Below, in pieces: positions 1 through 51,591 of a stretch of DNA of 64,000 nucleotides. Each line of letters starts with the position of its first letter. Positions within the stretch are counted from its first letter, which is position 1. This DNA is from Bacillota bacterium. Its GTDB lineage: Bacteria > Bacillota > Dethiobacteria > DTU022. The stretch lies in contig JAWSUE010000010.1 in the NCBI GenBank assembly GCA_033549065.1, positions 1 through 64,000 on the forward strand, in the 5' to 3' direction. The notes below the pieces were generated by a model that made no database searches, was not told the origin of the DNA, and was given only the letters and a program-made list of their open reading frames with translations. Position numbers and translations under genes: made by a program.

Positions 1-142
1 TCATACTTAAATCCGTTGATTTTTCAGGGTTATCGCAACACGCTTCCCACTGTAGAACTTACTTTGGGAATTTACGTATTTGTTAAAACGAATAGGTATT
101 TATGTTTGATCTTACAGAAATTATTAGGGAGGACTGGTTTAA

Positions 143-904
143 ATGAGAATAATCAGTGGCAGATTAATCATCGGTTTGGCAGTACTGATTGTAGGGGTGC
201 TCTTACTGCTGAATAACTTAAACCTGGGTGTGGAGATAGAGATGAGCCAAATTCTACGGTTATGGCCGGTTATTCCGCTAATACTCGGTTTAAACTGGTT
301 GTTTCTCTCTTTCAGTTCAACCGGTTCAGCAGAGGGTAAAAAGATATATTTTTCCTGGGGTCAGTTTGTAACAGCCTTGATATTTATTGTATTCGGAGCA
401 ATTTATCTCGGCAGGAATTTAGGCCTTTTTGAAGTAGAGGTGCGGTTATTTTGGAACATCTTATGGCCGCTTGTCTTGATCCTGATCGGTATTAACCTTT
501 TAAAAGGTAAAACGTTCAGTGGTGTTAAGGGCGGTCGCTTTACTTTCCTTGGCGGCTCAAATGTCGGTAGCCCTCATCCTTGGAAACTGGAAAGCGGTAG
601 TTACTTTGCCCTTATGGGGGGCATAGAGATGGATCTGACTGCAGCGGAACTTGATGAAGGGGAAACAATTCTTGATTTAACGGCTGTCATGGGTGGAATT
701 GAAGTTAAAATTCCTCGTGATATGGCTGTCATATACGAAGGTTCGGTTGTCCTTGGCGGGGTAACATTTAAAGATCTGGAAGACGGGGGTATAGTTGCCG
801 GACGAAGGGTTGAAGATAACCTTACAGAAACAGCTTCCAAAGTGCTAAGGATTCAAGCCCGGGCTGTTATGGGTGGTATAGAAATTAAAGAAGCGAAATC
901 TTAA
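143..904 (+). CDS. LiaF-like membrane protein
   Basis: 253 aa. The N-terminal half has four hydrophobic segments (about residues 5-27, 37-55, 73-92, 102-119). Two are followed or preceded by the R/I-L-W-P motif common in LiaF/LiaI-type membrane domains. The C-terminal half (about 145-253) is soluble and carries three MGGIE motifs spaced along a beta-rich domain, as in the LiaF C-terminal domain (cell-wall-active antibiotic response). In Bacillus, LiaF restrains the LiaRS sensor kinase; no LiaRS pair is visible here, so the role in envelope sensing is inferred from the family only. The start is supported by AGGGAGGA about 9 nt upstream. Its last bases overlap the stop of the convergent Mur ligase gene. 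Confidence 0.7.
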   Translation: MRIISGRLIIGLAVLIVGVLLLLNNLNLGVEIEMSQILRLWPVIPLILGLNWLFLSFSSTGSAEGKKIYFSWGQFVTALIFIVFGAIYLGRNLGLFEVEVRLFWNILWPLVLILIGINLLKGKTFSGVKGGRFTFLGGSNVGSPHPWKLESGSYFALMGGIEMDLTAAELDEGETILDLTAVMGGIEVKIPRDMAVIYEGSVVLGGVTFKDLEDGGIVAGRRVEDNLTETASKVLRIQARAVMGGIEIKEAKS

Positions 905-37008: not shown

Positions 37009-38334
37009 ATGAGCAGCACTGGATTTAAGGGAGGCGTTCATCCGGGTTATCATAAAGAAATTACTGCGACCATGGCAGTAATTGCGATGAAGCCGCCCTC
37101 CAAGGTGGTAATACCTTTACAACAACATATCGGTGCACCCTGTGAACCGCTGGATAATATCGAAGTCGGCACCCATGTTAAGCTGGGGCAGAAGATTGCT
37201 GATAGCAGCGGTTTTGTTTCGGCGCCGATTCATGCCACGGTATCGGGTACAATAACGGAGATCGGTCTTTTTAATCATCCCCTGGGAAGACCGGTTCAGG
37301 CAATAACCATAGAATCGGACGGTCAGGATGAATGGGATGAGACGATAAACCCTGCCGGCGATCTGGATGATCTTTCTTCTGATGATATCCGTAAACTTGT
37401 TCGTGAAGCAGGAATTGTCGGGCTTGGTGGTGCAACTTTCCCAGCTCATGTCAAATTATCTCCACCTGCAGAAAAACCTATTGATCTGGTAATTATTAAT
37501 GGAGCTGAATGTGAGCCATATCTTACAGCTGACCATAGGGTAATGCTGGAAAAACCTGAGGAGATAGTTTTCGGACTGAAAGCAATTTTAAAAGCGCTGG
37601 GTGCTGAAAAAGCTGTTATCGGCATAGAAGACAATAAGAGCGATGCTATAAGGGTAATGGAGCAGGCAATCTCAGGAGAAAACAATATAACTGTTGCCCG
37701 GCTACACACTAAATACCCGCAGGGTGCCGAGAAGATGCTGATAAACGTTACTACCGGACGGAAAGTCCCTTCCGGAGGATTACCTCTTGATATTGGTGTT
37801 GTAAATCATAATGTAGGGACAGCTGTAGCTGTTGCTGAAGCTATCCGGGAAGGAAAGCCTCTGATAGAAAGGGTCGTAACCGTAACAGGCTCAGGTGTTA
37901 ATCGACCCTCGAACCTTCTGATCAGGATCGGAACCCTGGTCAGTGATGTTCTGGAAGTTTGTGGAGGCTTGAAAGAAACAACCCAAAAATTGATAATTGG
38001 CGGCCCGATGATGGGATTAGCCCAGCCTGATCCTGATATTCCTGTTATCAAGGGAACTTCAGGAATTCTCGCCCTGACAGACCAGGACATTTACATTGCT
38101 GAAAGCAGTCCCTGCATTCGCTGTGCCAAGTGTATCGATGCTTGTCCGGTTCAACTGTTGCCGACAGAAATTGCCAAATTGGCTGAAAATAAGCTTTATA
38201 AAAAGGCGGAGAAAATTTATGCCCTTGATTGTTTTGAATGTGGCTGTTGTTCTTACGTCTGTCCTTCCAAAATTCCTTTGACGCAATGGATAAGGATTGC
38301 CAAGGCGGAAATCTTGAAAGCAAAAAAAAAGTAA
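37009..38334 (+). CDS. rnfC: Rnf complex subunit RnfC
   Basis: 441 aa. N-terminal GGVHPGYHKE and the barrel-sandwich domain, the NADH/FMN-binding SLBB region (GLGGATFPAHVK, INGAECEPYLTADHR), and two [4Fe-4S] motifs near the end (CIRCAKCIDACP and CFECGCCSYVCP). RnfC is the peripheral subunit that exchanges electrons with NAD. It opens the cluster rnfCDGEAB, the clostridial order. The complex oxidises reduced ferredoxin with NAD+ and pumps Na+ or H+. AGGAAAGGGTGA precedes the ATG. Confidence 0.95.
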   Translation: MSSTGFKGGVHPGYHKEITATMAVIAMKPPSKVVIPLQQHIGAPCEPLDNIEVGTHVKLGQKIADSSGFVSAPIHATVSGTITEIGLFNHPLGRPVQAITIESDGQDEWDETINPAGDLDDLSSDDIRKLVREAGIVGLGGATFPAHVKLSPPAEKPIDLVIINGAECEPYLTADHRVMLEKPEEIVFGLKAILKALGAEKAVIGIEDNKSDAIRVMEQAISGENNITVARLHTKYPQGAEKMLINVTTGRKVPSGGLPLDIGVVNHNVGTAVAVAEAIREGKPLIERVVTVTGSGVNRPSNLLIRIGTLVSDVLEVCGGLKETTQKLIIGGPMMGLAQPDPDIPVIKGTSGILALTDQDIYIAESSPCIRCAKCIDACPVQLLPTEIAKLAENKLYKKAEKIYALDCFECGCCSYVCPSKIPLTQWIRIAKAEILKAKKK

Positions 38335-38357
38335 AGGCTGAGTAAGGGAGGGAAGTG

Positions 38358-39329
38358 ATGAATATGGAAAAGAAAATGTTAGTTTCATCTTCTCCGCATA
38401 TACGGACTATTGAGTCAGTACAGAGTGTTATGACTGATGTTTTAATTGCTCTTTTTCCGGTAGCCCTCATGTCGGTGCTGCTATTCGGGTATAAAGCTCT
38501 TCTGACCATGATTATTTCGGTAGTTACAGCGATGCTGGTGGAAGCGATCTGGCTGCGCAAACGTGATATTTTCAGTGATGGCAGCGCAGCTGTAACCGGA
38601 TTACTGCTGGCAATGACTCTTCCCCCGGCTCCCCCGTGGTGGCTGGTGGTGATCGGTGCTGCAGCAGCGATAATTATTGGCAAACAGGTTTTTGGAGGGA
38701 TTGGTTATAATATTTTTAATCCCGCTTTGGTCGGCAGGGCAATTCTTGTTGTTTCATGGGGAGGGCATATGGTCGGACGTATTTGGCCGCAGCCACAACC
38801 ATTTGCCTTTGGAGCCGATATTTCGGCTGTAACAATGGCAACCCCACTTGCCGGTCAGGAAGAAGCTTTGGCAGTTAGTCTTACTCAGCTCTTTGTTGGT
38901 AATGTGGCCGGCTGTCTGGGAGAAACATCAGCCCTGGCCCTTTTGATCGGTGGCTTGTGGTTATTTTACAAGGGACATATTGACTGGCGTATACCCGGCG
39001 GTTACCTCGGAACCGTTTTTATTCTGGGAGTACTACTGGGCGGCGGTTTTTACGAGAATAACTTTTTAACCGGGCTCTTTCATGTGCTGGCCGGAGGGGT
39101 CATGCTCGGAGCGCTGTTCATGGCGACCGATATGGTTACCTCACCGGTTACGCCCAGGGGCAGGTTGATTTTCGGCATAGGCTGTGGATTGATCACAATG
39201 TTGATCAGAGTCTGGGGAACTATGCCGGAAGGTGTAACATTTGCTATTCTGATCATGAATGCGGTTACCCCGATTATTGATAATTTTACAGTTCCCAGGC
39301 AATTTGGGGGGGTGAAGAAAAGTGCGTAA
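38358..39329 (+). CDS. rnfD: Rnf complex subunit RnfD
   Basis: 323 aa, about ten membrane segments. Covalent-flavin region reads SAVTMATPLAG (T162 is the expected flavinylated Thr). Also GYNIFNPALVGRA and MATDMVTSPVTPRG. It is a membrane part of the Na+/H+-pumping Rnf core. GGGAGGG lies 5 nt before ATG 38358; GTG 38355 and ATG 38364 are neighbouring alternatives. The 3' end overlaps rnfG by 8 bp. Confidence 0.94.
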   Translation: MNMEKKMLVSSSPHIRTIESVQSVMTDVLIALFPVALMSVLLFGYKALLTMIISVVTAMLVEAIWLRKRDIFSDGSAAVTGLLLAMTLPPAPPWWLVVIGAAAAIIIGKQVFGGIGYNIFNPALVGRAILVVSWGGHMVGRIWPQPQPFAFGADISAVTMATPLAGQEEALAVSLTQLFVGNVAGCLGETSALALLIGGLWLFYKGHIDWRIPGGYLGTVFILGVLLGGGFYENNFLTGLFHVLAGGVMLGALFMATDMVTSPVTPRGRLIFGIGCGLITMLIRVWGTMPEGVTFAILIMNAVTPIIDNFTVPRQFGGVKKSA

Positions 39330-40491
39330 TATATTAAGGTTATCGTTAACTCTGGCTCTTGTCGGAATAGTGTCAGCCCTGCTTTTAACTGGTTTGTTCA
39401 ACCTTACCGAGCCTATAATAACGGAAAGACAGGAAAGAGAGTATCTGGAGACTCTGGAAGCCTTTTTCCCGGATATAGATACTTTTGAGACGGAAGTTCT
39501 GGAAGCAGATGCTTACGACATGGTTTATGATGTTTCAGGTCAGCTGCTGGGGGTAATGGGTACAATTAAACAGCAGGGTTATGACGGTGATATTACGTAC
39601 AACCTGGCAATAAATCAATCCGGCGAAGTAGTCGGAATCAGAATTGTATCCCATTCGGAAACTCCGGGAATCGGAGATGTAATTGAAACTGAAGCTTTCC
39701 AGGAGCAGTTTAAAGGAAAATCTTATGAAGACCCGATCGCTGCAGGAGAAGATGTAGACAGCGTTAGCGGCGCTACGGTCAGTTCTTCGGCAATGATTAA
39801 TTCAATCCGGCGTGTCGTCGGTGTTGTGGCTGAGAATTATCTGGGCATAGAAGCAGTTACCGTAGAGATTTCTGAAGTTCCTGATGGAGTTTATGAGGGA
39901 TCTGCACCCGGTTTAATGGGACTGATTGTCGTTGAAGTGGAAGTTTCCGGGGGAGCTATCACGCGGATAGAGGTGCTTGAACACGAAGATACTCCGACTT
40001 ACTTTATTGAAGCTTATCCACTTATCGCTGAAAGGATTATTGAAGCCCAGGATTTTGATATTGATATCAGAACCGGAGCAACTGTAAGTTCTGAAGGAAT
40101 ATTGAATGCTGTTATCAATGCGCTCCTCGGTGCTCTCGGAATTGACAGTGGTGATGTGGAAGAGGTGGAAGATGAGCCGGTCGCTGTTGATTTTTCTGAA
40201 GTTCCTGACGGAGTTTATGAAGGCACCGCTGAAGGCTTTTTAAGTCCGATAGTGGTAGAAGTTGAAGTATCCGGAGGGGAAGTAATCTCCATTAGCATAA
40301 TCAATCATGAGGAAACCGCTGAATATTTTGTTCAGTCCAATCCTCTCGTTCCGGAAAGAATAATTGAAGAGCAAACCCTTGATGTAGATATTATTACCGG
40401 TGCAACTAATTCTGCACGAGGTATTGTCAATGCTGTTAGAAATGCCCTGATCGGGGCATTGCAAGATGGTACTGGAGGTGACGGCAACTGA
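39322..40491 (+). CDS. rnfG: RnfG with three FMN-binding domains
   Basis: 389 aa, about twice the usual RnfG length. One N-terminal membrane helix (about 8-27), then three FMN-binding domains: about 65-175 with the classic SGATVS flavinylation motif at 149-154; about 183-272 with TGATVS at 251-256; and about 291-380 with TGATNS at 359-364. Domains 2 and 3 are 108 residues (324 bp) apart and remain similar at DNA level. An acidic linker (278-288) separates them. Ser would be the flavin acceptor in each motif. RnfG holds covalent FMN outside the membrane and relays electrons. GTG start with a G-rich site upstream. Confidence 0.92.
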   Translation: MRNILRLSLTLALVGIVSALLLTGLFNLTEPIITERQEREYLETLEAFFPDIDTFETEVLEADAYDMVYDVSGQLLGVMGTIKQQGYDGDITYNLAINQSGEVVGIRIVSHSETPGIGDVIETEAFQEQFKGKSYEDPIAAGEDVDSVSGATVSSSAMINSIRRVVGVVAENYLGIEAVTVEISEVPDGVYEGSAPGLMGLIVVEVEVSGGAITRIEVLEHEDTPTYFIEAYPLIAERIIEAQDFDIDIRTGATVSSEGILNAVINALLGALGIDSGDVEEVEDEPVAVDFSEVPDGVYEGTAEGFLSPIVVEVEVSGGEVISISIINHEETAEYFVQSNPLVPERIIEEQTLDVDIITGATNSARGIVNAVRNALIGALQDGTGGDGN

Positions 40492-41120
40492 TGAAATCGA
40501 GTAATCCTTATCTACAGGATCTAACCAGGGGTATTGTCAAAGAAAATCCTGTATTCGTAATGCTGCTCGGTATGTGCCCGGTATTGGGAGTTACTGCATT
40601 CATTGTCAACGGGTTTGGGATGGGGCTTGCTGCTACTGCTGTTTTGATCTGTTCCAATCTGGTGGTTTCGCTTCTTCGCAATTACATACCGCCGCAGGTG
40701 CGTATTCCCTGTTTTATTGTAATTATTGCAACCTTCGTAACAATCATTGAGATGGTCCTAAAGGCTTTTCAACCAGTATTATATGATGCGCTTGGTGTAT
40801 TTGTTCCGCTAATTGTGGTTAACTGTATTATCCTGGGCAGAGCTGAAGCCTTTGCCAGCAAGAGGCCGGTATTACGTTCGCTTATGGACGGCATCGGCAT
40901 GGGTATCGGATTAACTTTAGCGCTGGTTATTCTCTCGACTGTTCGTGAGGTTATCGGTCAGGGCACAATCCTTGGTCCGGATCCGGCAAGCGCTATTCAC
41001 TTATTTGGATCGAGCTATGAACCGATGGCGCTATTTGCACTGCCACCGGGAGCATTCATTGCACTTGGATTCCTGCTGGCAATTGTAAATGTGCTCTTCA
41101 AACGCTTTAATATCAAATAG
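40491..41120 (+). CDS. rnfE: Rnf complex subunit RnfE
   Basis: 209 aa, six membrane helices. Family marks NPVFVMLLGMCPVLGV and PLIVVNCIILGRAEAFASK. RnfE and RnfA are paralogous membrane subunits with inverted topology that hold an intramembrane iron-sulfur site. The ATG overlaps the rnfG stop (ATGA), so the two are translationally coupled. Confidence 0.95.
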   Translation: MKSSNPYLQDLTRGIVKENPVFVMLLGMCPVLGVTAFIVNGFGMGLAATAVLICSNLVVSLLRNYIPPQVRIPCFIVIIATFVTIIEMVLKAFQPVLYDALGVFVPLIVVNCIILGRAEAFASKRPVLRSLMDGIGMGIGLTLALVILSTVREVIGQGTILGPDPASAIHLFGSSYEPMALFALPPGAFIALGFLLAIVNVLFKRFNIK

Positions 41121-41162
41121 CTCAGTAACGGGCCTCTGAACCGGCCCGGGTAGGAGGGTAAT

Positions 41163-41744
41163 ATGGAAAAACTGCTGTCGATAATTTTTATCTATATTTT
41201 TGTAGACAATTTTGTTCTCCAGCGTTTCTTTGGGATATGTCCTTTTTTAGGGGTTTCCCGCAAAATGGAAACGGCGATGGGTATGAGTATGGCTGTTGTA
41301 TTTGTGATGACCCTGGCTACTCTCGTGACCTGGTTGATTTACACATTTGTATTGACCCCTTTTAATTTGACATACCTGCAGATTGTAACATTTATTCTTG
41401 TTATAGCCTCCCTTGTACAGCTGGTGGAGATCATTCTGCGTAAAATAAGCCCCACTCTGTACCAGGGATTGGGTATATTCTTGCCCCTTATTACCACTAA
41501 CTGTGCAGTTATGGCAGTAGCACTCTTGGCAGTACGTCAGGAATTTACCCTGGTTGAGTCGGTGGTTTTCGCCATCGCAGCTTCTCTCGGATTTTCTCTG
41601 GCCCTGATCATCATGTCTGGTATCCGGGAAAGACTTGAACTGGCAAAAATACCGGAAGCTTTAAAGGGTTCGGCAGTGACATTAATTACGGCTGGTATCC
41701 TGTCCCTGGCTTTCTTGGGTTTCAGGGGGATGCTTACGCTTTAA
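41163..41744 (+). CDS. rnfA: Rnf complex subunit RnfA
   Basis: 193 aa, six membrane helices. Family marks DNFVLQRFFGICPFLGVS and LPLITTNCAVMAVALL, with the conserved Cys residues in each half. Paralog of RnfE. TAGGAGGGTAAT precedes the ATG. Confidence 0.95.
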   Translation: MEKLLSIIFIYIFVDNFVLQRFFGICPFLGVSRKMETAMGMSMAVVFVMTLATLVTWLIYTFVLTPFNLTYLQIVTFILVIASLVQLVEIILRKISPTLYQGLGIFLPLITTNCAVMAVALLAVRQEFTLVESVVFAIAASLGFSLALIIMSGIRERLELAKIPEALKGSAVTLITAGILSLAFLGFRGMLTL

Positions 41745-41795
41745 CAGTTGCTTAATATAAAGTTGTTCCAAATATTGCTGTGAGGTGAAAATATC

Positions 41796-42650
41796 GTGCT
41801 TATTATATATGCAATAGTTGCCCTGGGTCTCATCGGCCTACTTTTCGGATTACTCCTGGCTGTCGTGGCCAGGAAGTTTGCCGTGCAAACCGACCCGCGG
41901 GTCGAGGCGGTAAAAGAAATATTACCTGGGGCCAACTGTGGGGCCTGCGGATATGCCGGATGTTCAAATTTTGCCGAAGCGGTTGCCCAGGGAGATACCA
42001 AGACCAGCGGTTGCATTCCAGGTGGAGAAGAAACAGCAAAGGCAATAGCTGAGGTCCTTGGTGAAGAAGTTACTGCTGAAGCTCAGCCGGTTGCAACGGT
42101 ATTTTGTATCGGTGACTGTTACAAAACTACCGATCGATATGTATATGACGGAGTAGAAGATTGTGTAGTGGCTAATGAATTTGTTGGTGGTTTTAAATCA
42201 TGCAGTTATGGCTGCCTCGGTTTCGGAAACTGTGTGAACGCCTGCCTTTTCGATGCGATTAAAATGGGTTCTCATGGTCTGCCGGTAGTCGATCCGGAAA
42301 AATGTACCGGCTGTGGTTTGTGTGCATCGGCCTGTCCGCGGCATATTATCCAAATGCTGCCTAAGGGTAGTGAAGGACACCTGGTTCTATGCAGTTCTCA
42401 CGATCGGGGCAAAACCGTTTCCCGGGCCTGTGAAATTGGCTGCATTGCCTGTAAGGCCTGTATAAAAGCCTGTCCACAGGAAGCAATTGAAATGGATGAA
42501 TACCTGGCAGTAATTGATCTTGAAAAATGCGATGACTGCGGGGAGTGTGTTAAAGTATGCAAGCCTGGAACTATACACCGGCGATCAGAAATACCTTCGG
42601 AGGAAGATGCTAAAGCTGCAGCAGCAGAAAAGGTTGCTGAGTCTGCATAA
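41796..42650 (+). CDS. rnfB: Rnf complex subunit RnfB
   Basis: 284 aa from a GTG start with AGGTGA upstream. One N-terminal membrane helix (about 3-25), then an Fe-S domain with C-G-A-C-G-Y-A-G-C and a later GC, followed by a row of ferredoxin-type motifs: CSYGCLGFGNCVNAC, CTGCGLCASACP, CIACKACIKACP and CDDCGECVKVCK. RnfB is the ferredoxin-oxidising entry point. The number of clusters (about five or six) fits clostridial RnfB. Confidence 0.95.
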   Translation: MLIIYAIVALGLIGLLFGLLLAVVARKFAVQTDPRVEAVKEILPGANCGACGYAGCSNFAEAVAQGDTKTSGCIPGGEETAKAIAEVLGEEVTAEAQPVATVFCIGDCYKTTDRYVYDGVEDCVVANEFVGGFKSCSYGCLGFGNCVNACLFDAIKMGSHGLPVVDPEKCTGCGLCASACPRHIIQMLPKGSEGHLVLCSSHDRGKTVSRACEIGCIACKACIKACPQEAIEMDEYLAVIDLEKCDDCGECVKVCKPGTIHRRSEIPSEEDAKAAAAEKVAESA

Positions 42651-42672: not shown

Positions 42673-43164
42673 ATGAAAAAGCAATGGTTAAACTACATTG
42701 GTATAACCATTATTTTCTTTCTCTTCTGGGTGGCCGTAAGCGGCTCCCTGGAATGGCCGCAGCTTGTTGTCGGTTTAGCAGCGGCCTCTTTTGTTACGTA
42801 CTTCAACCGGCAAATGATCATTACTGCAGAGGAAAGGCCACCAATCAGGTTAAAAACTGTTATTTGGCTGGTCGGTTATTTTTTAAAACTTATATTTGAC
42901 ATAGTAGTAGCAAATTTTCAGGTAGCCTGGATAGTGCTCCACCCTAAAATGCCTATTGAACCTAACTTTGTTTCTCTGACGGTTGATATTGACAAAGTCA
43001 CCAGCAGGGTGCTTCTGGCAAATTCAATTACCTTAACACCAGGAACATTAACAGTCCTTGCTGATGAAAAAGAATTTTTGGTCCATGCTCTGACTTTTAA
43101 AAATGGTGAAGGATTGGCCGACTGGCCCCTGATCGGCAGGTTAGAGAGAATGGAGGAAGAATAG
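42673..43164 (+). CDS. mrpE: Mrp/Mnh antiporter subunit E
   Basis: 163 aa. Two N-terminal hydrophobic segments, then the MnhE pattern VANFQVAWIVLHPKMPIEPNFV and LLANSITLTPGTLTV. First gene of a ten-gene cation antiporter cluster that starts only 22 bp after rnfB, so rnf and mrp are probably one transcript or closely coupled. The ribosome binding site is weak. Confidence 0.9.
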   Translation: MKKQWLNYIGITIIFFLFWVAVSGSLEWPQLVVGLAAASFVTYFNRQMIITAEERPPIRLKTVIWLVGYFLKLIFDIVVANFQVAWIVLHPKMPIEPNFVSLTVDIDKVTSRVLLANSITLTPGTLTVLADEKEFLVHALTFKNGEGLADWPLIGRLERMEEE

Positions 43165-43166
43165 AT

Positions 43167-43448
43167 TTGAGTTTACCTCAGATACTGGATTATATGTATA
43201 ATATTGGTGCTATCATAGTAATGTTGATGATTTTCATGTCACTGATCAGAGCGCTTGTTGGACCAACAGCTCCTGACCGGGTGACGGCTATCAACATTAT
43301 TGGAACCAAGACCTTGATTATTATTACCCTGATTGCCCGTATCTATGAACAAAAATACTTCTTAGATATTGCCATGGTTTATGCCCTGATGAGTTTTATC
43401 ACCACTATTGGGGTAGCCAAATATCTTGAGAAGGGGGCGTTGGACTGA
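43167..43448 (+). CDS. mrpF: Mrp/Mnh antiporter subunit F
   Basis: 93 aa from a TTG start with GGAGGAAG upstream. Three membrane helices and the MnhF pattern RALVGPTAPDRVTAINIIGTK. Small membrane subunit of the Mrp complex. Confidence 0.9.
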   Translation: MSLPQILDYMYNIGAIIVMLMIFMSLIRALVGPTAPDRVTAINIIGTKTLIIITLIARIYEQKYFLDIAMVYALMSFITTIGVAKYLEKGALD

Positions 43449-43777
43449 TTATCGCTTCGATTACTTTAATAATTGATATCCTGGCACTCATATTTTTAAT
43501 CGGGGGGCTCTTCTTTCTTTTTGTCGGGACGCTCGGATTGCTGCGTCTGCCTGATGTTTACAACCGGCTCCACGCAACGACCAAGTGCGATACCCTTGGA
43601 GCAGGTCTGGTCTTACTATCTCTGGCCTTGCAGAGTACAACCGTAATCGGTATCAGACTTGCTTTGCTTATATTATTTATTTTGATTACCAACCCGACTG
43701 CAGCTCATTTGATTGCACGCGCAGCCTATAAGACAGGTATTCGGCCGGTACTTGCCCGGAGGGATAAAGATGGTTGA
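43445..43777 (+). CDS. mrpG: Mrp/Mnh antiporter subunit G
   Basis: 110 aa as given. MnhG pattern G-T-L-G-L-L-R-L-P-D-V-Y-N-R-L-H-A-T-T-K, then two more helices. The first standard start codon in frame (TTG 43538) falls inside the conserved motif and would lose the first helix. AAGGGGG at 43431-43437 is 7 nt from CTG 43445, which overlaps the mrpF stop; ATT 43448 is another possibility. The length then matches the family. The non-standard start is inference. Confidence 0.82.
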   Translation: MIIASITLIIDILALIFLIGGLFFLFVGTLGLLRLPDVYNRLHATTKCDTLGAGLVLLSLALQSTTVIGIRLALLILFILITNPTAAHLIARAAYKTGIRPVLARRDKDG

Positions 43778-44009
43778 ACTGCTTAATATATTGCTGTTGC
43801 TGTTCTTAATAGTTTGTGCCCTGGGTGTTGCTTATATCCGTGATCTTCTCAGTGCAGTAGTCCTCTTTTCGGCATTCGGCCTGATTATGGCCATAATCTG
43901 GCAGCAGCTAAGTGCTCCTGATGTTGCCATGGTTGAGGCGGCATTGGGAACAGGTGTTGCAGCCCTGCTGATGATAGCTGCTATCAGTAAAACAAAAAGG
44001 GTTGAATAA
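43770..44009 (+). CDS. MbhD-like/MrpA C-terminal subunit (DUF4040)
   Basis: 79 aa, three hydrophobic segments. Pattern R-D-L-L-S-A-V-V-L-F-S-A-F-G-L and APDVAMVEAALGTGV is typical of the DUF4040 domain, which is the C-terminal part of MrpA in Bacillus and a separate MbhD subunit in membrane-bound hydrogenases. GGAGGGATAAAG precedes the ATG, which overlaps the end of mrpG. Here MrpA is split into several genes. Confidence 0.85.
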   Translation: MVELLNILLLLFLIVCALGVAYIRDLLSAVVLFSAFGLIMAIIWQQLSAPDVAMVEAALGTGVAALLMIAAISKTKRVE

Positions 44010-44032
44010 CCTTAGTCAGGAGTGGTTATTCT

Positions 44033-44371
44033 ATGACGTACATTGTTCTTGCATTCGCTTTTTTTCTGGCAATATTCCTGAGGTTCATCATCGGAATTGA
44101 ACTGAGGACTATCCTGACAGTATATCTTCTTGGATTGATTATATACCTGTTTGGGTTTACTGTGGCAGAAATGCCCCCATTTGGAGATCCTGGAAACCCC
44201 GTTTTTAATGAAGTTTCAGTTCGCTATCTTGGACAGGGAGTTTCTGAAACAGGGGCAGTGAATATTGTGAGCAGTGTAATCCTAGATTACCGTGCATTCG
44301 ATACCCTGGGAGAAGCGACTGTTCTCTTTGTTGCTATTGCAGCGGTAATAGCAACCTTAAAATCGCATTAG
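44033..44371 (+). CDS. MbhE-like/MrpA C-terminal subunit
   Basis: 112 aa. Two or three membrane segments and the conserved tail V-N-I-V-S-S-V-I-L-D-Y-R-A-F-D-T-L-G-E-A-T-V-L, found in the last domain of MrpA and in MbhE. AGGAGTGG precedes the ATG. Confidence 0.85.
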   Translation: MTYIVLAFAFFLAIFLRFIIGIELRTILTVYLLGLIIYLFGFTVAEMPPFGDPGNPVFNEVSVRYLGQGVSETGAVNIVSSVILDYRAFDTLGEATVLFVAIAAVIATLKSH

Positions 44372-44393
44372 GAACGCCTGGAGGTATTATCCT

Positions 44394-44819
44394 ATCGAAG
44401 ATCAAATTGTGCGTATTACCAGCCGTCTGGTTACACCCTTCATTCAGGTTTACGGAATATACGTGATCCTGCACGGTCATCTCTCGCCCGGTGGAGGTTT
44501 TTCCGGTGGAGCGATATTCGGGGCCAGCCTGGTCCTTGTAGCCTTATCTTTTAATTTGGAAGCCGGATCAAAACAGATATCCCATCGTACAGCTTCAATC
44601 CTTGAAAGCGGAGGAGCACTGGGCTTTACCATCACCGGCCTGGTTGCCATTATCCTGGGAAGCAGCTTCCTGGCCAACCGTGCAGCAGGTTTTCCAATGG
44701 GTGAGGCAGGTTCGCTTTTCAGCGCCGGAGCAATAGCAATAATAACCGTATTCCTGGGAATCAAGGTAGCCAGCACAATTGTTACCCTCTTTTATAACAT
44801 AATCGAAGGAGAGAAATAG
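44394..44819 (+). CDS. mrpB: Mrp/Mnh antiporter subunit B
   Basis: 141 aa as given. MnhB/MbhF pattern I-V-R-x-x-S-R-L-x-x-P-F-I-Q near the start and YVILHGHLSPGGGFSGGAI. Start: GTG at 44409 would cut off the conserved E-D-x-I-V-R and is 24 nt from the ribosome binding site. GGAGG at 44380-44384 is 9 nt from ATC at 44394, which gives I-E-D-Q-I-V-R as expected for the family. An AUC start is unusual; see findings. Confidence 0.85.
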   Translation: MEDQIVRITSRLVTPFIQVYGIYVILHGHLSPGGGFSGGAIFGASLVLVALSFNLEAGSKQISHRTASILESGGALGFTITGLVAIILGSSFLANRAAGFPMGEAGSLFSAGAIAIITVFLGIKVASTIVTLFYNIIEGEK

Positions 44820-44820
44820 C

Positions 44821-45189
44821 TTGGATTTCTTGTCCGGACTGATGGAAAATTATTATTACATGGTGGCAATAATCCTTTTTGTCATCGGCATGCATACCAT
44901 GCTTACCCATTCAAACATGATAAAAAAGATTATTGCGATGAATATAATGGATACTTCCGTTTTCCTGCTCTTCGTAGCGATCGGCTATTCCTATGGCGGT
45001 AAAGCTCCTATTATCACAGAAGGAGCAGATATTGTTTATGCCAACCCCCTGCCTGGATCACTTATTTTAACCGGGATAGTTGTTGCGGTAAGTGTCACTG
45101 CCTATGCTTTAAGCCTGGTGGTTAAGATCTACCGATACTACGGAACATGCGATTATGATGAAATTTGTGAGATAAGGAGTAAGGAATAG
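44821..45189 (+). CDS. mrpC: Mrp/Mnh antiporter subunit C
   Basis: 122 aa from a TTG start with AAGGAGAG upstream. NuoK-like: three helices, GMHTMLTHSNMIKKIIAMNIMDTSVFL, and PLPGSLILTGIVVAVSVTA. It starts 1 nt after the mrpB stop. Confidence 0.92.
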   Translation: MDFLSGLMENYYYMVAIILFVIGMHTMLTHSNMIKKIIAMNIMDTSVFLLFVAIGYSYGGKAPIITEGADIVYANPLPGSLILTGIVVAVSVTAYALSLVVKIYRYYGTCDYDEICEIRSKE

Positions 45190-46667
45190 TGACCTTTTCT
45201 GATCATCTTCCGGCATTGGTGGTTGTCATTTTTTTGATCAGTGCTTTTTCTGCGCCACTCGTTTTCAGGTGGGCAAGAAATTTAAGCGCCCCGCTTCTTC
45301 TCACTACACTGATTCTTGCTTTTGCTATGGCCATTTATCTTTTAAGTATGGTTAATACTCGGGGAACTATTTTATACCATATGGGAGGTTGGCCGCCGCC
45401 ATGGGGCATTGAACTGCAGGTTGATCGATTGCGTAGTTACATGCTTCTTGTAGTAACCGGAGTCAGCTTGTGGATCTTTTTTTATGGTTTAAAAGATCTC
45501 CAGCATGAATTAAAACCGGAAGTGATAGGTTGGTACTACTCACTTTATGCTTTACTTGTCGGGTCAATGGTCGGGATTACTCTGACCAACGATCTTTTCA
45601 ACCTTTTTGTAATGATGGAAATTTGCGCAATTTCTGCATGTGCGATTATTTCAATCAAGGAAGACAGGGAATGCCTTGAAGCCAGCTTCAAGTACTTGAT
45701 CCTGAGTGCCATGGGAACAGGCTGTTTCCTACTCGGTGTAGCTATGTTATACATGGCGACCGGGTATTTAAACTATGGATTGCTTCAGGAGGCTCTTTCA
45801 GAAGCATTTTTGCTGTATCCGAGAAACATTTTTACTGCCGGAGCACTTTTCATTGTAGCTTTTGGAACAAAAGCAGCGCTCTTCCCTATGCATGTATGGC
45901 TCCCGGATGCTCATGCATCAGCACCTTCACCTTCAAGCGCTATGCTGTCTGGAGTCGTGATCAAGATCTATGCATTTGCTTTGTTTTTAATGTTTTTCAG
46001 AGTATTTCCAAGAGAACTTCTTGAAGCGGTTCCCTTGAGTGAAATTATTCTCTGGCTTGCCTCACTGGGTGTTATGTTTGGTTCCATCTATGCCATGCTG
46101 CAGACAGATCTGAAAAAAATGCTGGCTTTCTCGAGTATCGGTCAGATCGGATACATTTTCATGGGTATCGGTTTTAACCATGGATTAGCGGCAGTGGGTG
46201 GATTTTATCATATCCTGGTTCATGCGATGACAAAGGCGATGCTTTTTATGGTTGCAGGAGTAATAATCTATTCAACAGGAGTTCGGCAGATAAAAGATCT
46301 GGCTGGCATAGGAAGGGTGCTGCCTTTGACCATGGTGGCATTTACCATAGGTAGCGCATCAATGATCGGTATCCCGGGTACCGGCGGTTTGATCAGCAAA
46401 TGGTATTTAGCGCTTGGTGCGCTTGAAATAGGCAGGCCTCTTTTTGTTATTGTAATTCTGGCCAGTAGTTTACTGAATGCTATATACTATATGCCGATTG
46501 TGATCAATGCCTTTATGCATCAGGAAGATTTTAAGTTGAAGAGCAAACCGGTACCCCGCTTCATGCTCATTTCACTGGTTTTCGGGATGACCGGTGTTAT
46601 CCTTTCCGGGATCTTCTCCAAGCCTGTTATCCTGCTCCTCGAACAGGCATTAATTCAGTTTTTTTAA
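45189..46667 (+). CDS. mrpD: Antiporter-like subunit 1, MrpD-like
   Basis: 492 aa, about 14 helices. Proton_antipo_M family: conserved Glu in MEICAISACAII (helix 5), Lys in FGTKAALFPMHVWLPDAHASAPSPSSAMLSG, and Lys/His in HAMTKAMLFMVAG. GTG start overlaps the mrpC stop. It is the first of three paralogous ion-pumping subunits in the cluster. Confidence 0.92.
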   Translation: MTFSDHLPALVVVIFLISAFSAPLVFRWARNLSAPLLLTTLILAFAMAIYLLSMVNTRGTILYHMGGWPPPWGIELQVDRLRSYMLLVVTGVSLWIFFYGLKDLQHELKPEVIGWYYSLYALLVGSMVGITLTNDLFNLFVMMEICAISACAIISIKEDRECLEASFKYLILSAMGTGCFLLGVAMLYMATGYLNYGLLQEALSEAFLLYPRNIFTAGALFIVAFGTKAALFPMHVWLPDAHASAPSPSSAMLSGVVIKIYAFALFLMFFRVFPRELLEAVPLSEIILWLASLGVMFGSIYAMLQTDLKKMLAFSSIGQIGYIFMGIGFNHGLAAVGGFYHILVHAMTKAMLFMVAGVIIYSTGVRQIKDLAGIGRVLPLTMVAFTIGSASMIGIPGTGGLISKWYLALGALEIGRPLFVIVILASSLLNAIYYMPIVINAFMHQEDFKLKSKPVPRFMLISLVFGMTGVILSGIFSKPVILLLEQALIQFF

Positions 46668-46756: not shown

Positions 46757-48271
46757 TTGGAAAAAACAACAGTAATAACTCTCTTAATAATTATAGTTTT
46801 ATTACCAATCGTCATGACTCCGGTTATTTATTATATATGCCGGTTTTCAGAAAGGCTGCGAAACATAGTTGCGGTTTTAACCAGTGGAGTTACATTTGTT
46901 CTCACCCTGTTCCTCTATCCGGCTATTTCCGGAGGGGGAGGGGTCCAGCATACACTTTTTGAGATCTTACCTAACCTGGAAATCTCAATCCGCCTGGATG
47001 TTCTCAGCTTCAGCCTGGCTGCAATTGCTTCATTGATCTGGTTCATGTGTACCATTTATTCGATTGATTACATGGCCAAAGAGCACGCCTGCGGCCGCTA
47101 TTACCCTGTTTTGATTTTTACTCTGGGCAGCTGCCAGGGAATTTTCTTTGCCGGGGATCTTTTTACTCTATTTGTATTTTTTGAGCTCATGTCTTTAATC
47201 GCCTATATCCTGATTATCCATGAAGAAACCGAAGAAGCGCTGAAAGCCGGTTATAAATACCTGGTAATGACCATTATTGGCGGTCTCGCCCTCTTTTTCG
47301 GCATAATTATTGTTTTTGAACTGGGAGGAACGGTATCCCTGGGTGTGGGGGTTATAATCAGTGAAAATAGTCTGTTAGCCCTGATAGCTTTTATCTGTTT
47401 TTTGATCGGTTTTGGTATGAAAGCCGGGATGTTTCCCCTGCATGTGTGGCTGCCTGACGCTCACCCGGTAGCACCATCACCGGCTAGCGCTCTGCTGTCG
47501 GGAGTTATGCTTAAAACCGGGGCATATGGTTTATTGAGAGTATTATTTCATGTTTATTCCATCGATCTTATCAGGGATAGCAACTGGGATCTGATTCTGG
47601 GAGTCTTGGCTGTTATTACTATTCTTCTGGGATCTGCAGTAGCTTTAACCCAAACCGATATAAAACGCCGGCTGGCCTATTCCAGTATCAGCCAGTTGGG
47701 TTATATTCTACTCGGAATGAGTATTCTTAACAATAATGGCGTAACCGGAGCAGTTTTTCATATCTTCAGCCATGCTTTTATGAAAAGCGTTCTTTTCCTT
47801 GCAGCCGGAGCGGTTTTATGGAAAACCGGGAAGCGCAATATTGCAGATTATGGCGGTATAGGGCGACAGATGCCTTTCACCATGGGCTGTTTTTCAATTG
47901 CTGCCCTGGCGATGATCGGAATACCACCTCTTAATGGATTTCTCAGTAAATGGACCCTGGCTTTGGGTGCACTTGATGCTGGAATGACCCTCTATGTACC
48001 GGTGTTATTGATCAGCAGTCTTTTAAATGCACTTTATTACCTTCCGATTATAATTCCTGCATTCTTTGAGATGCCTGCCGGAGAGAAGACTCACAGGGAA
48101 GATGACAGCCATGAAATAAAATTTGACATCAGGGAAGCAACTTACCGCATGCTGATACCCCTGGTATTTCTTGCTCTCTGTACCATCTTTTTCGGTTTAA
48201 CACCCAACAATATCACCTTTACTCTCTCCCGCTATACAGCTGCTTTCCTGTTGGGAGGGGGGATTTTCTAA
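46757..48271 (+). CDS. Antiporter-like subunit 2, MrpD-like
   Basis: 504 aa from a TTG start with GGAGGTG upstream. About 14 helices; conserved E in FFELMSLIAYILIIHEE, K in GMKAGMFPLHVWLPDAHPVAPSPASALLSG, and HAFMKSVLFL. Proton_antipo_M family. It is more similar in motifs to the third antiporter-like subunit than to the first (both share the HPVAPSPASALLSG stretch), which suggests a duplication. Confidence 0.9.
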   Translation: MEKTTVITLLIIIVLLPIVMTPVIYYICRFSERLRNIVAVLTSGVTFVLTLFLYPAISGGGGVQHTLFEILPNLEISIRLDVLSFSLAAIASLIWFMCTIYSIDYMAKEHACGRYYPVLIFTLGSCQGIFFAGDLFTLFVFFELMSLIAYILIIHEETEEALKAGYKYLVMTIIGGLALFFGIIIVFELGGTVSLGVGVIISENSLLALIAFICFLIGFGMKAGMFPLHVWLPDAHPVAPSPASALLSGVMLKTGAYGLLRVLFHVYSIDLIRDSNWDLILGVLAVITILLGSAVALTQTDIKRRLAYSSISQLGYILLGMSILNNNGVTGAVFHIFSHAFMKSVLFLAAGAVLWKTGKRNIADYGGIGRQMPFTMGCFSIAALAMIGIPPLNGFLSKWTLALGALDAGMTLYVPVLLISSLLNALYYLPIIIPAFFEMPAGEKTHREDDSHEIKFDIREATYRMLIPLVFLALCTIFFGLTPNNITFTLSRYTAAFLLGGGIF

Positions 48272-50551
48272 TTGTTTGCTGCGGCTTCCGAAAACATAGT
48301 CGATACAAGCCATATATACTATTCCATTCTGCCGCTCCTGGCTGCCCTGATTCCCCTCCTAACCGGAATTGCAATTTATTTTCTCAAAGATAGCTGGGAA
48401 GTCCTCAGAAAAGCGGTAGCCCTGGCTGCTGCTCTCTTTGCCTTATTGGCAGTGATCAGCCTCTTTCCACTTGTCATGAGCGGAAAAGTATATTTTGATT
48501 TGATCGATTTTATGCAGATGGGGCTTTTTTTCAAAGTTGATCTGGTTGCCTGGGTATTTGCTTTTTTGATTACCTTCATCTGGTCTCTGGCTACAATATT
48601 TTCCTTTGCTTACATGGATCACGAACATAACAGGCGGCGTTATTATAGTTTCTTAATCTTTACGCTGGGGGCAACGCTCGGCGTTGTTCTTGCCGGAGAT
48701 TTCTTTACACTTTTCCTTTTTTTTGAGTTAATGACCCTCAGTTCCTTTGTCCTGGTCATTCATGAACAGAATGTTGAGGCGATGAAAGCAGGTATGCTCT
48801 ACCTGTACCTGGGTATAGCCGGAGGACTTAGCCTGCTTTTTGCCATAATGATGTTATATGGAGGTACCGGAACGGTTGATATTGCTCCTGCCCTCGAGCT
48901 CCTGGACCGGAACAGGACAGCAATTTATATTTTATTTTTGATCGGTTTCGGGATCAAAGCAGGATTGGTTCCTTTGCACATTTGGCTGCCTCAGGCTCAT
49001 CCTGTAGCGCCGTCCCCGGCCAGCGCCCTACTTTCAGGGATTATGATCAAGGCTGGGGCATACGGCATACTGAGAGTTTCACTGATATTATTTTCTACCA
49101 CAGGCGAATTAAGTGCTCTGGATGCTTCCTATTTATTTACTGTCGGCAGTGCTTTGATGTGGATCGGAATTGTGACTATGCTGCTTGGTGCCGTAATGGC
49201 CCTGCTGCAGAGTAATATGAAACGGATTCTGGCTTACAGCAGTGTCAGCCAGATCGGTTATATTGCAACAGGACTGGGAGTAGCGACTTTTATGGGCATT
49301 GAAGGAGGTATGGGATTTGCAGGCGCCGTGTACCATATCATAAATCATGCCTTTTTCAAGGCCGGACTATTTATGATGGTCGGTACAGTTTATGTTTACA
49401 CCCATGAATTGGAGCTCTCCCGTTTAGGTGGAATGTTAAAAAAGATGCCGGTTGTAGCAGTGGCATTTCTGGTAGCTGCCTTTGGTATTGCCGGTGTGCC
49501 TGGATTTAACGGTTACCCCAGCAAAACCCTGGTGCATGATGCTCTGCTGATTGCAATCAAGTTCAATGAATTGCTCAGCATTGAAATTGCTGAAAAAATA
49601 TTTGTATTAACCAGTGCGTTAACCATATGTTACTTTATTAAATTATTCAGGGGTATTTTCCTGGGACCAGTTCCTGAGAAGCTGGACCGTAACTACAAGT
49701 TGCCTTTTTCCATTAATTTTGTTATGACCAGTTTTATAATAATTATTACAGGTATTGGCCTTTTCCCAAACTATATTTTGGAGAAAATTCTGGTTCCTGC
49801 GGCAGAAATGTTTCGATACGAAGGATATGCTATGGAACATCTCTATCATTTTCATTTTTTTGAGTGGCACCCCCTTGAAGCCATGCTGATTGTAGGTGCA
49901 CTGGCACTTATTATTTACATTCCGGGTGCTTACCGTGGGTGGTTCAACTGGACACCCCCGGAATGGTTAAGTATCCATCGGTTGGTCTATGGCCCCCTGA
50001 CAAAACAGCTGATGATCATCACCTGCCGGGCAGGAATTATTCTGGACTCGTCGGTAGACGGAGCCTATGATCGTTCGGGTAACATTGCCCGTAACATGTG
50101 TCGTTACATCGGAGATGCAGATATCGGTCTGGATAAATTTTACGAGAAGACAGGCAAAATGGCCAGAAGCCTGGCTGACCGTTCTACTGACATGGATTCC
50201 AAGCTTGATCAATTTTATGAAAAATCGGGAGAAATGGCCCGTAAGATCGCAGACAGGACTTCTGAAATGGACTCCGCTCTTGATGACATATACACTAAAT
50301 CGGGAAAGCAGGCGCAAAAATTGGCCAGGCAGACTTCTGATATTGACCGGGCAATAAATGTTGTATATGATCAGGCGGGCCAGAAAGCCCGTAACGAAGT
50401 TGAGAGAAGGCTGTCGGAGAAAGAGAAAAAAACCGGTCGTTTCGATTCGACCAAATGGACAACAAAAAACCTTAGTTTTGATACCTTGCTCCTCTTTCTT
50501 GTGCTGGGTGTGGTTTTGTTCATTATTTTCTATTTTGGACGCCTGAATTAA
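48272..50551 (+). CDS. Antiporter-like subunit 3 with repeat tail
   Basis: 759 aa from a TTG start directly after the previous stop. Residues 1-540 are a Proton_antipo_M subunit (FFELMTLSSFVLVIHEQ, GIKAGLVPLHIWLPQAHPVAPSPAS, HAFFKAGLFMMVG). An extra helix region (about 540-590) follows, then five exact 25-residue repeats (about 596-720) and a final membrane helix (about 735-755). The antiporter part would move H+ or Na+. The repeat tail, anchored by its own helix, is not part of known Mrp subunits to my knowledge. Confidence 0.9.
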   Translation: MFAAASENIVDTSHIYYSILPLLAALIPLLTGIAIYFLKDSWEVLRKAVALAAALFALLAVISLFPLVMSGKVYFDLIDFMQMGLFFKVDLVAWVFAFLITFIWSLATIFSFAYMDHEHNRRRYYSFLIFTLGATLGVVLAGDFFTLFLFFELMTLSSFVLVIHEQNVEAMKAGMLYLYLGIAGGLSLLFAIMMLYGGTGTVDIAPALELLDRNRTAIYILFLIGFGIKAGLVPLHIWLPQAHPVAPSPASALLSGIMIKAGAYGILRVSLILFSTTGELSALDASYLFTVGSALMWIGIVTMLLGAVMALLQSNMKRILAYSSVSQIGYIATGLGVATFMGIEGGMGFAGAVYHIINHAFFKAGLFMMVGTVYVYTHELELSRLGGMLKKMPVVAVAFLVAAFGIAGVPGFNGYPSKTLVHDALLIAIKFNELLSIEIAEKIFVLTSALTICYFIKLFRGIFLGPVPEKLDRNYKLPFSINFVMTSFIIIITGIGLFPNYILEKILVPAAEMFRYEGYAMEHLYHFHFFEWHPLEAMLIVGALALIIYIPGAYRGWFNWTPPEWLSIHRLVYGPLTKQLMIITCRAGIILDSSVDGAYDRSGNIARNMCRYIGDADIGLDKFYEKTGKMARSLADRSTDMDSKLDQFYEKSGEMARKIADRTSEMDSALDDIYTKSGKQAQKLARQTSDIDRAINVVYDQAGQKARNEVERRLSEKEKKTGRFDSTKWTTKNLSFDTLLLFLVLGVVLFIIFYFGRLN
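50057..50431 (+). repeat. Five 75-bp in-frame repeats
   Basis: Units start at 50057, 50132, 50207, 50282 and 50357 with no slippage. Each encodes 25 residues with a consensus of D/N-x-x-Y, a small residue, G, then A-R or A-Q, a variable middle, and D-x-x-L/I at the end (for example DQFYEKSGEMARKIADR followed by TSEMDSAL). Twenty-five residues is seven turns of an alpha helix, so each unit would present the same face. The last unit is degenerate after its first half. Confidence 0.85.
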
Positions 50552-50562
50552 GGAGCTAAAAA

Positions 50563-51591
50563 TTGCCACCTATTAAAATAAAACCATCCATCGCGATCCC
50601 TCTTTTTTCCCTGATCGTTGTTGCTTTATTTTTTTATATCCGGGTAGTCAATGCTGAGAAAATGAATGTCTATTACCGGGTAACCATGGATACTTCTGTT
50701 GAGCTGCGATTCAGCAGTAATTCATCAGTTGATCCCGATGTGATAAAAGAGGCAGTATTTGATGAAATCAAGAGAATGGAGAACATATTCAGCCGCAGCA
50801 TTGAGGAAAGTGAAATTAGCAGAATAAACAGGATGGCCGGAGTCAGCCCGGTTGCAGTAAGCCCGGAAATGCTGGCAGTGCTGGAAATGGCTCTTCAGTT
50901 TACAGAGCTGACCGGCGGTGCATTTAATCCGGCAATAGCACCGGTTATTGATGCCTGGGGTTTTTTTAGTCAGGTATACAAGATACCCTCAGGCAGCGAC
51001 CTGAAAAATACCCTGGAGGTTTCAGATTACCGGAATGTTGAGATTGATTATGAACAGTCTACTGTTTTCCTGTCCGAAAAAGGAATGGCCCTGGAGTTGG
51101 GCGGGATCGCCAAAGGATTCATTATTGATCAGGCTATGGCTGTCTTAAATAATTATGGGGTAGAGCATGCTTTTATCAATGCCGGAGGAGATATACTTCT
51201 GAAAGGGACGAAAACTGACGGCAGCCTGTGGAAAATCGGTGTACGCAATCCCCGTGAAGAGGAAAAAATTATTGCCGTATTTCATGTTTCCGAAGGAGCT
51301 GTTGTAACCTCCGGAGATTATGAACGCTTTTTTGAAGAGGGCGGAAAGCGATATCACCATATTCTTGATCCCCTTACCGGGTATCCGGCCGGTGAATTGG
51401 CCAGTGTAACTGTTCTCGCCCCTTCTGCAGTTATAGCCGATACACTATCGACTGCCATCTTTATTCTCGGCCCTGTCCAGGGAATAAATCTGGTGGAGAG
51501 TTTGCCGGAAGTCGAAGCCCTGCTAATTACTCCCGGTTTGGAAATTATACAATCAGGGGGACTGCATGATAATGTTGAAGTGCAGTTTTAA
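50563..51591 (+). CDS. apbE: FAD:protein FMN transferase ApbE
   Basis: 342 aa from a TTG start. N-terminal signal/anchor helix (about 9-29). ApbE marks: TGGAFNPAIAPVIDAWGF, ELGGIAKGFIIDQA, NAGGDILLKG, and VTSGDYERFF with HHILDPLTGYPA. It transfers FMN from FAD to Thr/Ser in S/D-G-A-T-x-S/T motifs outside the membrane. RnfG (three such motifs) and RnfD in the same block are the obvious substrates. It begins 11 nt after the last antiporter gene. Confidence 0.93.
   Translation: MPPIKIKPSIAIPLFSLIVVALFFYIRVVNAEKMNVYYRVTMDTSVELRFSSNSSVDPDVIKEAVFDEIKRMENIFSRSIEESEISRINRMAGVSPVAVSPEMLAVLEMALQFTELTGGAFNPAIAPVIDAWGFFSQVYKIPSGSDLKNTLEVSDYRNVEIDYEQSTVFLSEKGMALELGGIAKGFIIDQAMAVLNNYGVEHAFINAGGDILLKGTKTDGSLWKIGVRNPREEEKIIAVFHVSEGAVVTSGDYERFFEEGGKRYHHILDPLTGYPAGELASVTVLAPSAVIADTLSTAIFILGPVQGINLVESLPEVEALLITPGLEIIQSGGLHDNVEVQF

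Follow-up and report, generated by a model that had tools for sequence, protein, structure and literature searches.

Tandem 25-residue units in the putative lateral helix of a terminal antiporter-like subunit encoded beside Rnf in Bacillota

Introduction

The lateral helix (HL) of complex I has been debated for a long time as a piston, a brace or no more than a clamp. In E. coli complex I, the insertion of 6-7 flexible residues in HL between NuoL and NuoM ruins pumping, and several other HL insertion sites are tolerated (PMC3274701). In the superfamily, an HL between TMH15 and TMH16 is known that braces Mrp and whose length differs according to how many antiporter subunits there are (PMC9474812, PMC7419157, PMC9568556). 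The helix of NuoL is not repetitive and "does not have a clear conserved pattern" (PMC3274701); that of MrpA lies on the cytosolic surface between TMH15 and TMH16 (PMC7419157, PMC9568556), with no repeat described; and HycC of formate hydrogenlyase, a subunit of 16 TMHs, carries between TMH15 and TMH16 a short HL that serves a single antiporter subunit (PMC9474812).

Here we analysed a window, a stretch of 64,000 nucleotides of a Bacillota genome (contig JAWSUE010000010.1, positions 1 to 64,000), in which the last antiporter gene of an Rnf-Mrp operon, D3, encodes five tandem 25-residue units. D3 shares with NuoL the antiporter fold, an amphipathic segment at the TM15-TM16 site and its place on one terminal subunit, and the cytosolic side of the D3 tail is assigned by homology to NuoL; unlike the NuoL helix, the D3-type helix consists of 2-7 units of 25 residues, whose number varies among operons of like composition. 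With MrpA, which gives the best Foldseek matches to the D3 model (7qru, 6z16), it has Mrp-type partner subunits in common, but D3 ends at TM16, without the fused C-terminal (ND6-like, MbhD/E) domain, mbhD and mbhE being separate genes. What is new is the repeat construction, the TM15-TM16 lateral helix itself being already known; in the open-access literature, we found no account of a lateral helix with repeats or of an Rnf-Mrp supercomplex.

Results

The operon follows the order rnfC-D-G-E-A-B, mrpE-F-G, mbhD-E, mnhB-C, D1, D2, D3, apbE and a gene resembling heptaprenyl diphosphate synthase component I, with these positions:

37009..42650, + strand: rnfC, rnfD, rnfG, rnfE, rnfA, rnfB, immediately upstream of the Mrp-type genes
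42673..45189, + strand: mrpE, mrpF, mrpG, mbhD, mbhE, mnhB, mnhC
45189..46667, + strand: D1, antiporter-like subunit without a tail
46757..48271, + strand: D2, antiporter-like subunit without a tail
48272..50551, + strand: D3, NuoL/MrpA-type antiporter-like subunit of 759 aa, the operon's last antiporter gene
50563..51591, + strand: apbE (PF02424, 2.9e-90), the operon's next gene after D3

From what is known of its family, we take the apbE product to be the flavin transferase for RnfG/RnfD-type proteins. The RnfG of the window (39322-40491) has 389 aa and three FMN_bind stretches, and one relative (L152) encodes an RnfD-RnfG fusion with four. As far as an excerpt of the published account goes (PMC10608574), the Rnf genes of 'Candidatus Contubernalis alkaliaceticus' (HUE98_01685-01710) adjoin multisubunit antiporter genes (01720-01765), apparently in the same layout as the window's operon, and that excerpt makes no mention of a repeat.

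D3 starts with a TTG codon and contains Proton_antipo_M (PF00361) at E 2.5e-61, above cut-off; its model aligns with MrpA/NuoL at Z 43-45 (VIA-align; E. coli NuoL 43, MrpA 44). Residues E152, K229 and K363 are invariant across 28 sequences, and, from what is known of the family, presumably occupy the places of the TM5 Glu, TM7 Lys and TM12 Lys of the buried proton path. The AlphaFold2 helices form a 14-TM core, with pLDDT mostly 65-95, followed by TM15 and by TM16, the latter at low confidence. The tail lies between these two, where five 25-residue units adjoin with zero indels (aa 593-717, 50048-50422):

49865..49933, + strand: TM15, aa 532-554, AlphaFold2 helix
49964..50047, + strand: start of the putative lateral helix, aa 565-592 (WLSIHRLVYGPL...), with fixed spacing from Trp565 to Tyr599 of unit 1
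50048..50122, + strand: unit 1, from aa 593, SSVDGAYDRSGNIARNMCRYIGDAD
50123..50197, + strand: unit 2, from aa 618, IGLDKFYEKTGKMARSLADRSTDMD
50198..50272, + strand: unit 3, from aa 643, SKLDQFYEKSGEMARKIADRTSEMD
50273..50347, + strand: unit 4, from aa 668, SALDDIYTKSGKQAQKLARQTSDID
50348..50422, + strand: unit 5, from aa 693, RAINVVYDQAGQKARNEVERRLSEK, a degenerate end unit
50423..50476, + strand: exit linker to TM16, with the conserved motif WTTKNL, variable in length among relatives
50477..50539, + strand: TM16, aa 736-756, AlphaFold2 helix, spanned by the HycC alignment (16..752)

Over the array, the mean BLOSUM62 score at lag 25 was 2.05, against -0.69 +/- 0.20 in shuffles (13.6 s.d.; 0 of 20,000 as high), and within aa 561-740 lag 25 ranked first, with lag 50 as runner-up. 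A preliminary description of this DNA had reported five exact 25-residue repeats at 50057-50431; it is the same array and there are indeed five units, exact in length and without an indel, but their phase was three residues off and their sequences are not exact, protein identity between pairs averaging 33% (range 16-60%). As DNA identity at lag 75 is likewise low (51%), the units being exact in length only, the array went unreported by Tandem Repeats Finder. Identity between units at the three codon positions (0.49/0.62/0.30) suggests old duplications in which the protein sequence was constrained and silent sites were not. The minus strand has an open reading frame of 200 aa over the array (49967-50569), which we regard as shadowing the coding strand.

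Relatives, mostly sediment MAGs filed under Syntrophomonadaceae or Bacillota, were searched with a position matrix built up from the window's five units. This genome search with a repeat profile, which the preliminary description had proposed, detected 296 distinct units in several families of the phylum (consensus SALDEAYEKSGKAARKLADRTGDFD), with Y7 conserved in 96%, G11 in 83% and D25 in 77%, and no Pfam family exceeded its cut-off with the window tail, the consensus or a 7-unit tail (three queries). In 106 non-redundant relatives, 275 of the 279 unit-to-unit intervals equal 25 residues; three others equal 50, each with one sub-threshold unit, and one comes from a spurious body hit. Intervals of 23, 24 or 26 did not occur among the 279, though the search would accept them. 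Comparing repeat number among relatives, also proposed, revealed 2 to 7 units per protein, with differences even inside one genus, three members of which have 6, 6 and 7. The length of the 25-residue block is under strong constraint, and the number of blocks is free between species.

Copy number as a ruler of antiporter number was considered and rejected (Spearman -0.04; n = 32, uncorrected for descent, mostly three-antiporter operons). Five-antiporter operons have four units. Since unit number is unrelated to antiporter number, the tail is no simple ruler.

Repeats of other lengths were also seen. The lateral-helix position of another Mrp locus (L158:13923-16343, G345:C28) is occupied by a different, 23-residue repeat (SSLDPTRAVPLGQEAARLAAVVD) in six copies, with prolines within the unit, and may be a separate instance of a lateral helix made of repeats. 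In the lateral-helix region of a relative that lacks the 25-residue repeat (L147:1577-3742, G361), 26 residues appear to be duplicated once.

The tail is in a fixed position at its start. The Trp that follows TM15 and the Tyr of the first unit are 34 residues apart in 66 of 71 repeat-bearing proteins, divergent D4 bodies included, and the xNL motif before TM16 comes 6-87 residues after the last unit among relatives. The helix thus begins in a fixed register and its end is free, and TM16, given the variable exit linker, need not occupy a fixed place. The selection on length that had been suggested for this tail thus holds for the unit and for the entry register (34), and not for the tail as a whole (2-7 units, exit 6-87).

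The D3 model superposes from 18..594 on E. coli NuoL 1..561 (rmsd 2.8), from 18..598 on MrpA 1..588 (rmsd 3.4) and from 16..752 on HycC 2..605 (rmsd 3.0), the last crossing to TM16, so that the D3 tail, with a model pLDDT of about 35-50 in that part, appears to begin where their HL begins. On the repeats proper, Foldseek and VIA are uninformative, the low-pLDDT part being barely aligned, and a missing match there carries no meaning. As modelled, the tail is most readily understood as an HL that tandem units have extended, rather than a new appendage. The statement that tails of this kind are unknown from NuoL/Mrp-type subunits is consequently not supported, as the TM15-TM16 region is the known HL of NuoL, MrpA and HycC; the lateral helix, one of three readings offered with that statement, turned out to be the best of them.

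Structure prediction, the remaining check proposed, assigned helix to nearly all of D3 568-718 in two AlphaFold2 runs. With pLDDT of 34-50, the path of the tail in space is not confidently predicted; the model of the second run, based on 11 similar sequences, was poor (pLDDT 43), and its helix assignment alone was used. The hydrophobic moment of the units peaks at 100.5-100.8 degrees, an angle that fits 7 turns into 25 residues, and none of 2000 shuffles reached so high a peak. Together with the predicted helix and TM16 at 736-756, this value agrees with the earlier proposal of seven-turn units followed by a final membrane helix; it departs from the heptad period of coiled coils (peak at 100.8 degrees, not 102.9). 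Strip positions 3, 6, 7, 10, 11, 14, 17, 18, 21 and 24 are charged in 2% of cases and the others in 54%, Pro accounts for 17 of 7400 unit residues, and the D3 units carry 23 positive and 23 negative charges, net zero. At 1.5 A per residue, a single helix of five units plus the entry segment would measure ~228 A, and one of seven units ~300 A. Such a helix of ~228-300 A is long relative to a row of three antiporters, which counts against reading it as a brace.

A search with the D3 body covered 398 genomes of the phylum, the gene context being read afterwards. Lag-25 z exceeded 4 in 16 of 19 Rnf-adjacent operons, the other three having 2-3 weak units; the L152 operon, with a divergent Rnf-like set, has no repeats. 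No 25-residue repeat was found in ~19 proteins of Mrp/Mbh-like loci not adjoining Rnf, the window's genome with three other NuoL-like tails included. A strict need for Rnf adjacency is ruled out by family f25, by L076 and by orphan copies in L072 and L090, all of which bear repeats: f25 and L076 keep them with Rnf encoded elsewhere in the genome, although in f25 an RnfG-like FMN-binding gene still adjoins. The presence of Rnf in a genome is useless as a predictor of repeats, Rnf being found in 24 of 24 genomes checked. Since the repeat trait follows the D3 clade, its association with Rnf could stem from descent alone.

Variants of the gene context were seen as well. A second Mrp/Mbh-like locus of the window's genome (L144, C9:106500-125500) has eight antiporter-like genes in 19 kb, of 733, 518, 491, 530 and 718 aa on one strand and 535, 529 and 666 aa on the other, together with mrpE/F/G, mbhD/E and mnhB/C; its NuoL-like tails lack repeats. 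In L083, L085, L086, L156 and L159, Rnf operons are followed by D2 and D3 only, with no recognisable mrpE-mnhC or D1 adjoining.

In the body tree (a quick search with SH-aLRT support only), most repeat-bearing D3s of Rnf operons form one clade (SH-aLRT 97), and family f25 and L076 fall outside it, on long or open branches. Nine D3s of one genus, a nested clade (SH-aLRT 100), have lost their repeats; the operons of this genus have four or five antiporter genes, the final one, D4, being a separate long-branched body lineage with 4-5 units and the same entry register. In other families, D4 replaces D3 and bears the repeats. The full repeat tail is on just one gene in each operon read. This gene is the last one except in L095, where the full-repeat gene lies upstream of two repeat-poor antiporter genes; that it is always the last was therefore rejected. 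In genus g3 (L043, L047, L091, L092), five antiporter-like genes stand in a row: D1, D2, two repeat-less D3 and a repeat-bearing D4. The orphan D3 genes with 25-residue repeats (L072:1727-4108, L090:3-2159) lie away from Mrp genes in genomes that also carry an Rnf-Mrp operon, and their products may be exchangeable subunits.

Repeat-less relatives (L101 of the window's genome; D3s of g3) retain the first half-unit motif at +34, and the repeats can thus have grown from an ancestral HL segment. Adjacent units are up to 96% identical in DNA (L074), which shows recent duplication.

Discussion

We propose, with a probability of about 0.6, that the repeats form the HL of a NuoL/MrpA-type terminal antiporter subunit and serve as a brace or tether for an Rnf-Mrp assembly. 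The TM15-TM16 site, the strict 25-residue unit of 7 helical turns and a single charge-free strip, the fixed entry register, the variable copy number and the restriction of full copies to one antiporter gene per operon are read from sequence. A 25-residue segment would have been duplicated in frame, making the HL longer, and the tail would run along the cytosolic face as a single, almost straight amphipathic helix, starting on D3, with its apolar strip resting against the antiporter row and perhaps a neighbouring Rnf complex, and terminating in TM16 through a loose linker. Such a helix could keep the Rnf-Mrp assembly together. Whole-unit steps would be tolerated, partial steps not being seen: as each unit restores the helical register, the gain or loss of a unit would spare earlier contacts, which would explain a strict period with a free copy number.

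A docking platform, to which Rnf (through RnfC/RnfB on the cytosolic side) or multiple copies of some other partner attach and whose copy number sets valency or reach, would account for the fact that the repeats mark Rnf-linked operons and are missing from other Mrp/Mbh loci, and Y7, G11 and D25 with the small residues resemble a specific protein interface. We consider it unlikely, since family f25 has repeats with Rnf in another operon (its RnfG-like neighbour notwithstanding) and since the periodicity tracks the D3 clade, so that the link with Rnf may be mere common descent.

Less probable again is a long amphipathic helix lying on the membrane as in apolipoproteins, where it would shape or sense the bilayer and make no specific contacts with proteins. 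A single narrow apolar strip runs along the whole length, both tail ends are in the membrane, and ApoLp-III resembled the units weakly in the Pfam search, with an E of 0.0017 that falls short of its cut-off; apolipophorins and apolipoproteins also have amphipathic helical segments in tandem, but with a sub-threshold profile match only we claim no homology. Binding to anionic membranes usually goes with an excess of positive charge, which the window's net-neutral units lack, and the conservation of Y7, G11 and D25 is more specific than lipid binding requires.

Mrp forms dimers, and the tails of two complexes might pair through the small-residue strip as a coiled-coil strut, the 25/7 periodicity corresponding to three heptads and a stutter. 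Positions 3, 7, 10, 14, 17, 21 and 24 do follow a 3-4 spacing with one stutter, and large residues alternate with small ones in a way that favours tight packing of helices. Against this, both tail ends are membrane-anchored, the tail start overlays HL, and S/T/G/A at 10, 11, 14 and 21 would make a weak core for a free coiled coil, leaving such a strut quite improbable. The functionless tandem expansion of a tolerated loop, for which copy-number differences between close relatives and the near-identical adjacent units of an ongoing duplication could speak, is hardly credible given only whole-unit indels in 279 intervals, conserved positions alongside silent-site divergence, and the presence of the repeats on D4, the next gene, in operons whose D3 has lost them.

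In conclusion, these operons, otherwise alike in composition, offer a natural series in which the helix at the HL site grows by whole units of 7 turns, their count running from 2 to 7. With its start in register and its end free, this series argues against a length-critical piston in Rnf-Mrp complexes, and it supplies ready-made natural variants of HL length. The repeats also draw attention to the Rnf-Mrp operon, which is widespread and little described and whose products may work as one machine. Tentatively, Rnf and Mrp might form one physical supercomplex with the repeat-built HL as its adjustable spine and each unit a contact module; if so, the HL of the superfamily would be a modular part, often varied in length with its helical register kept.
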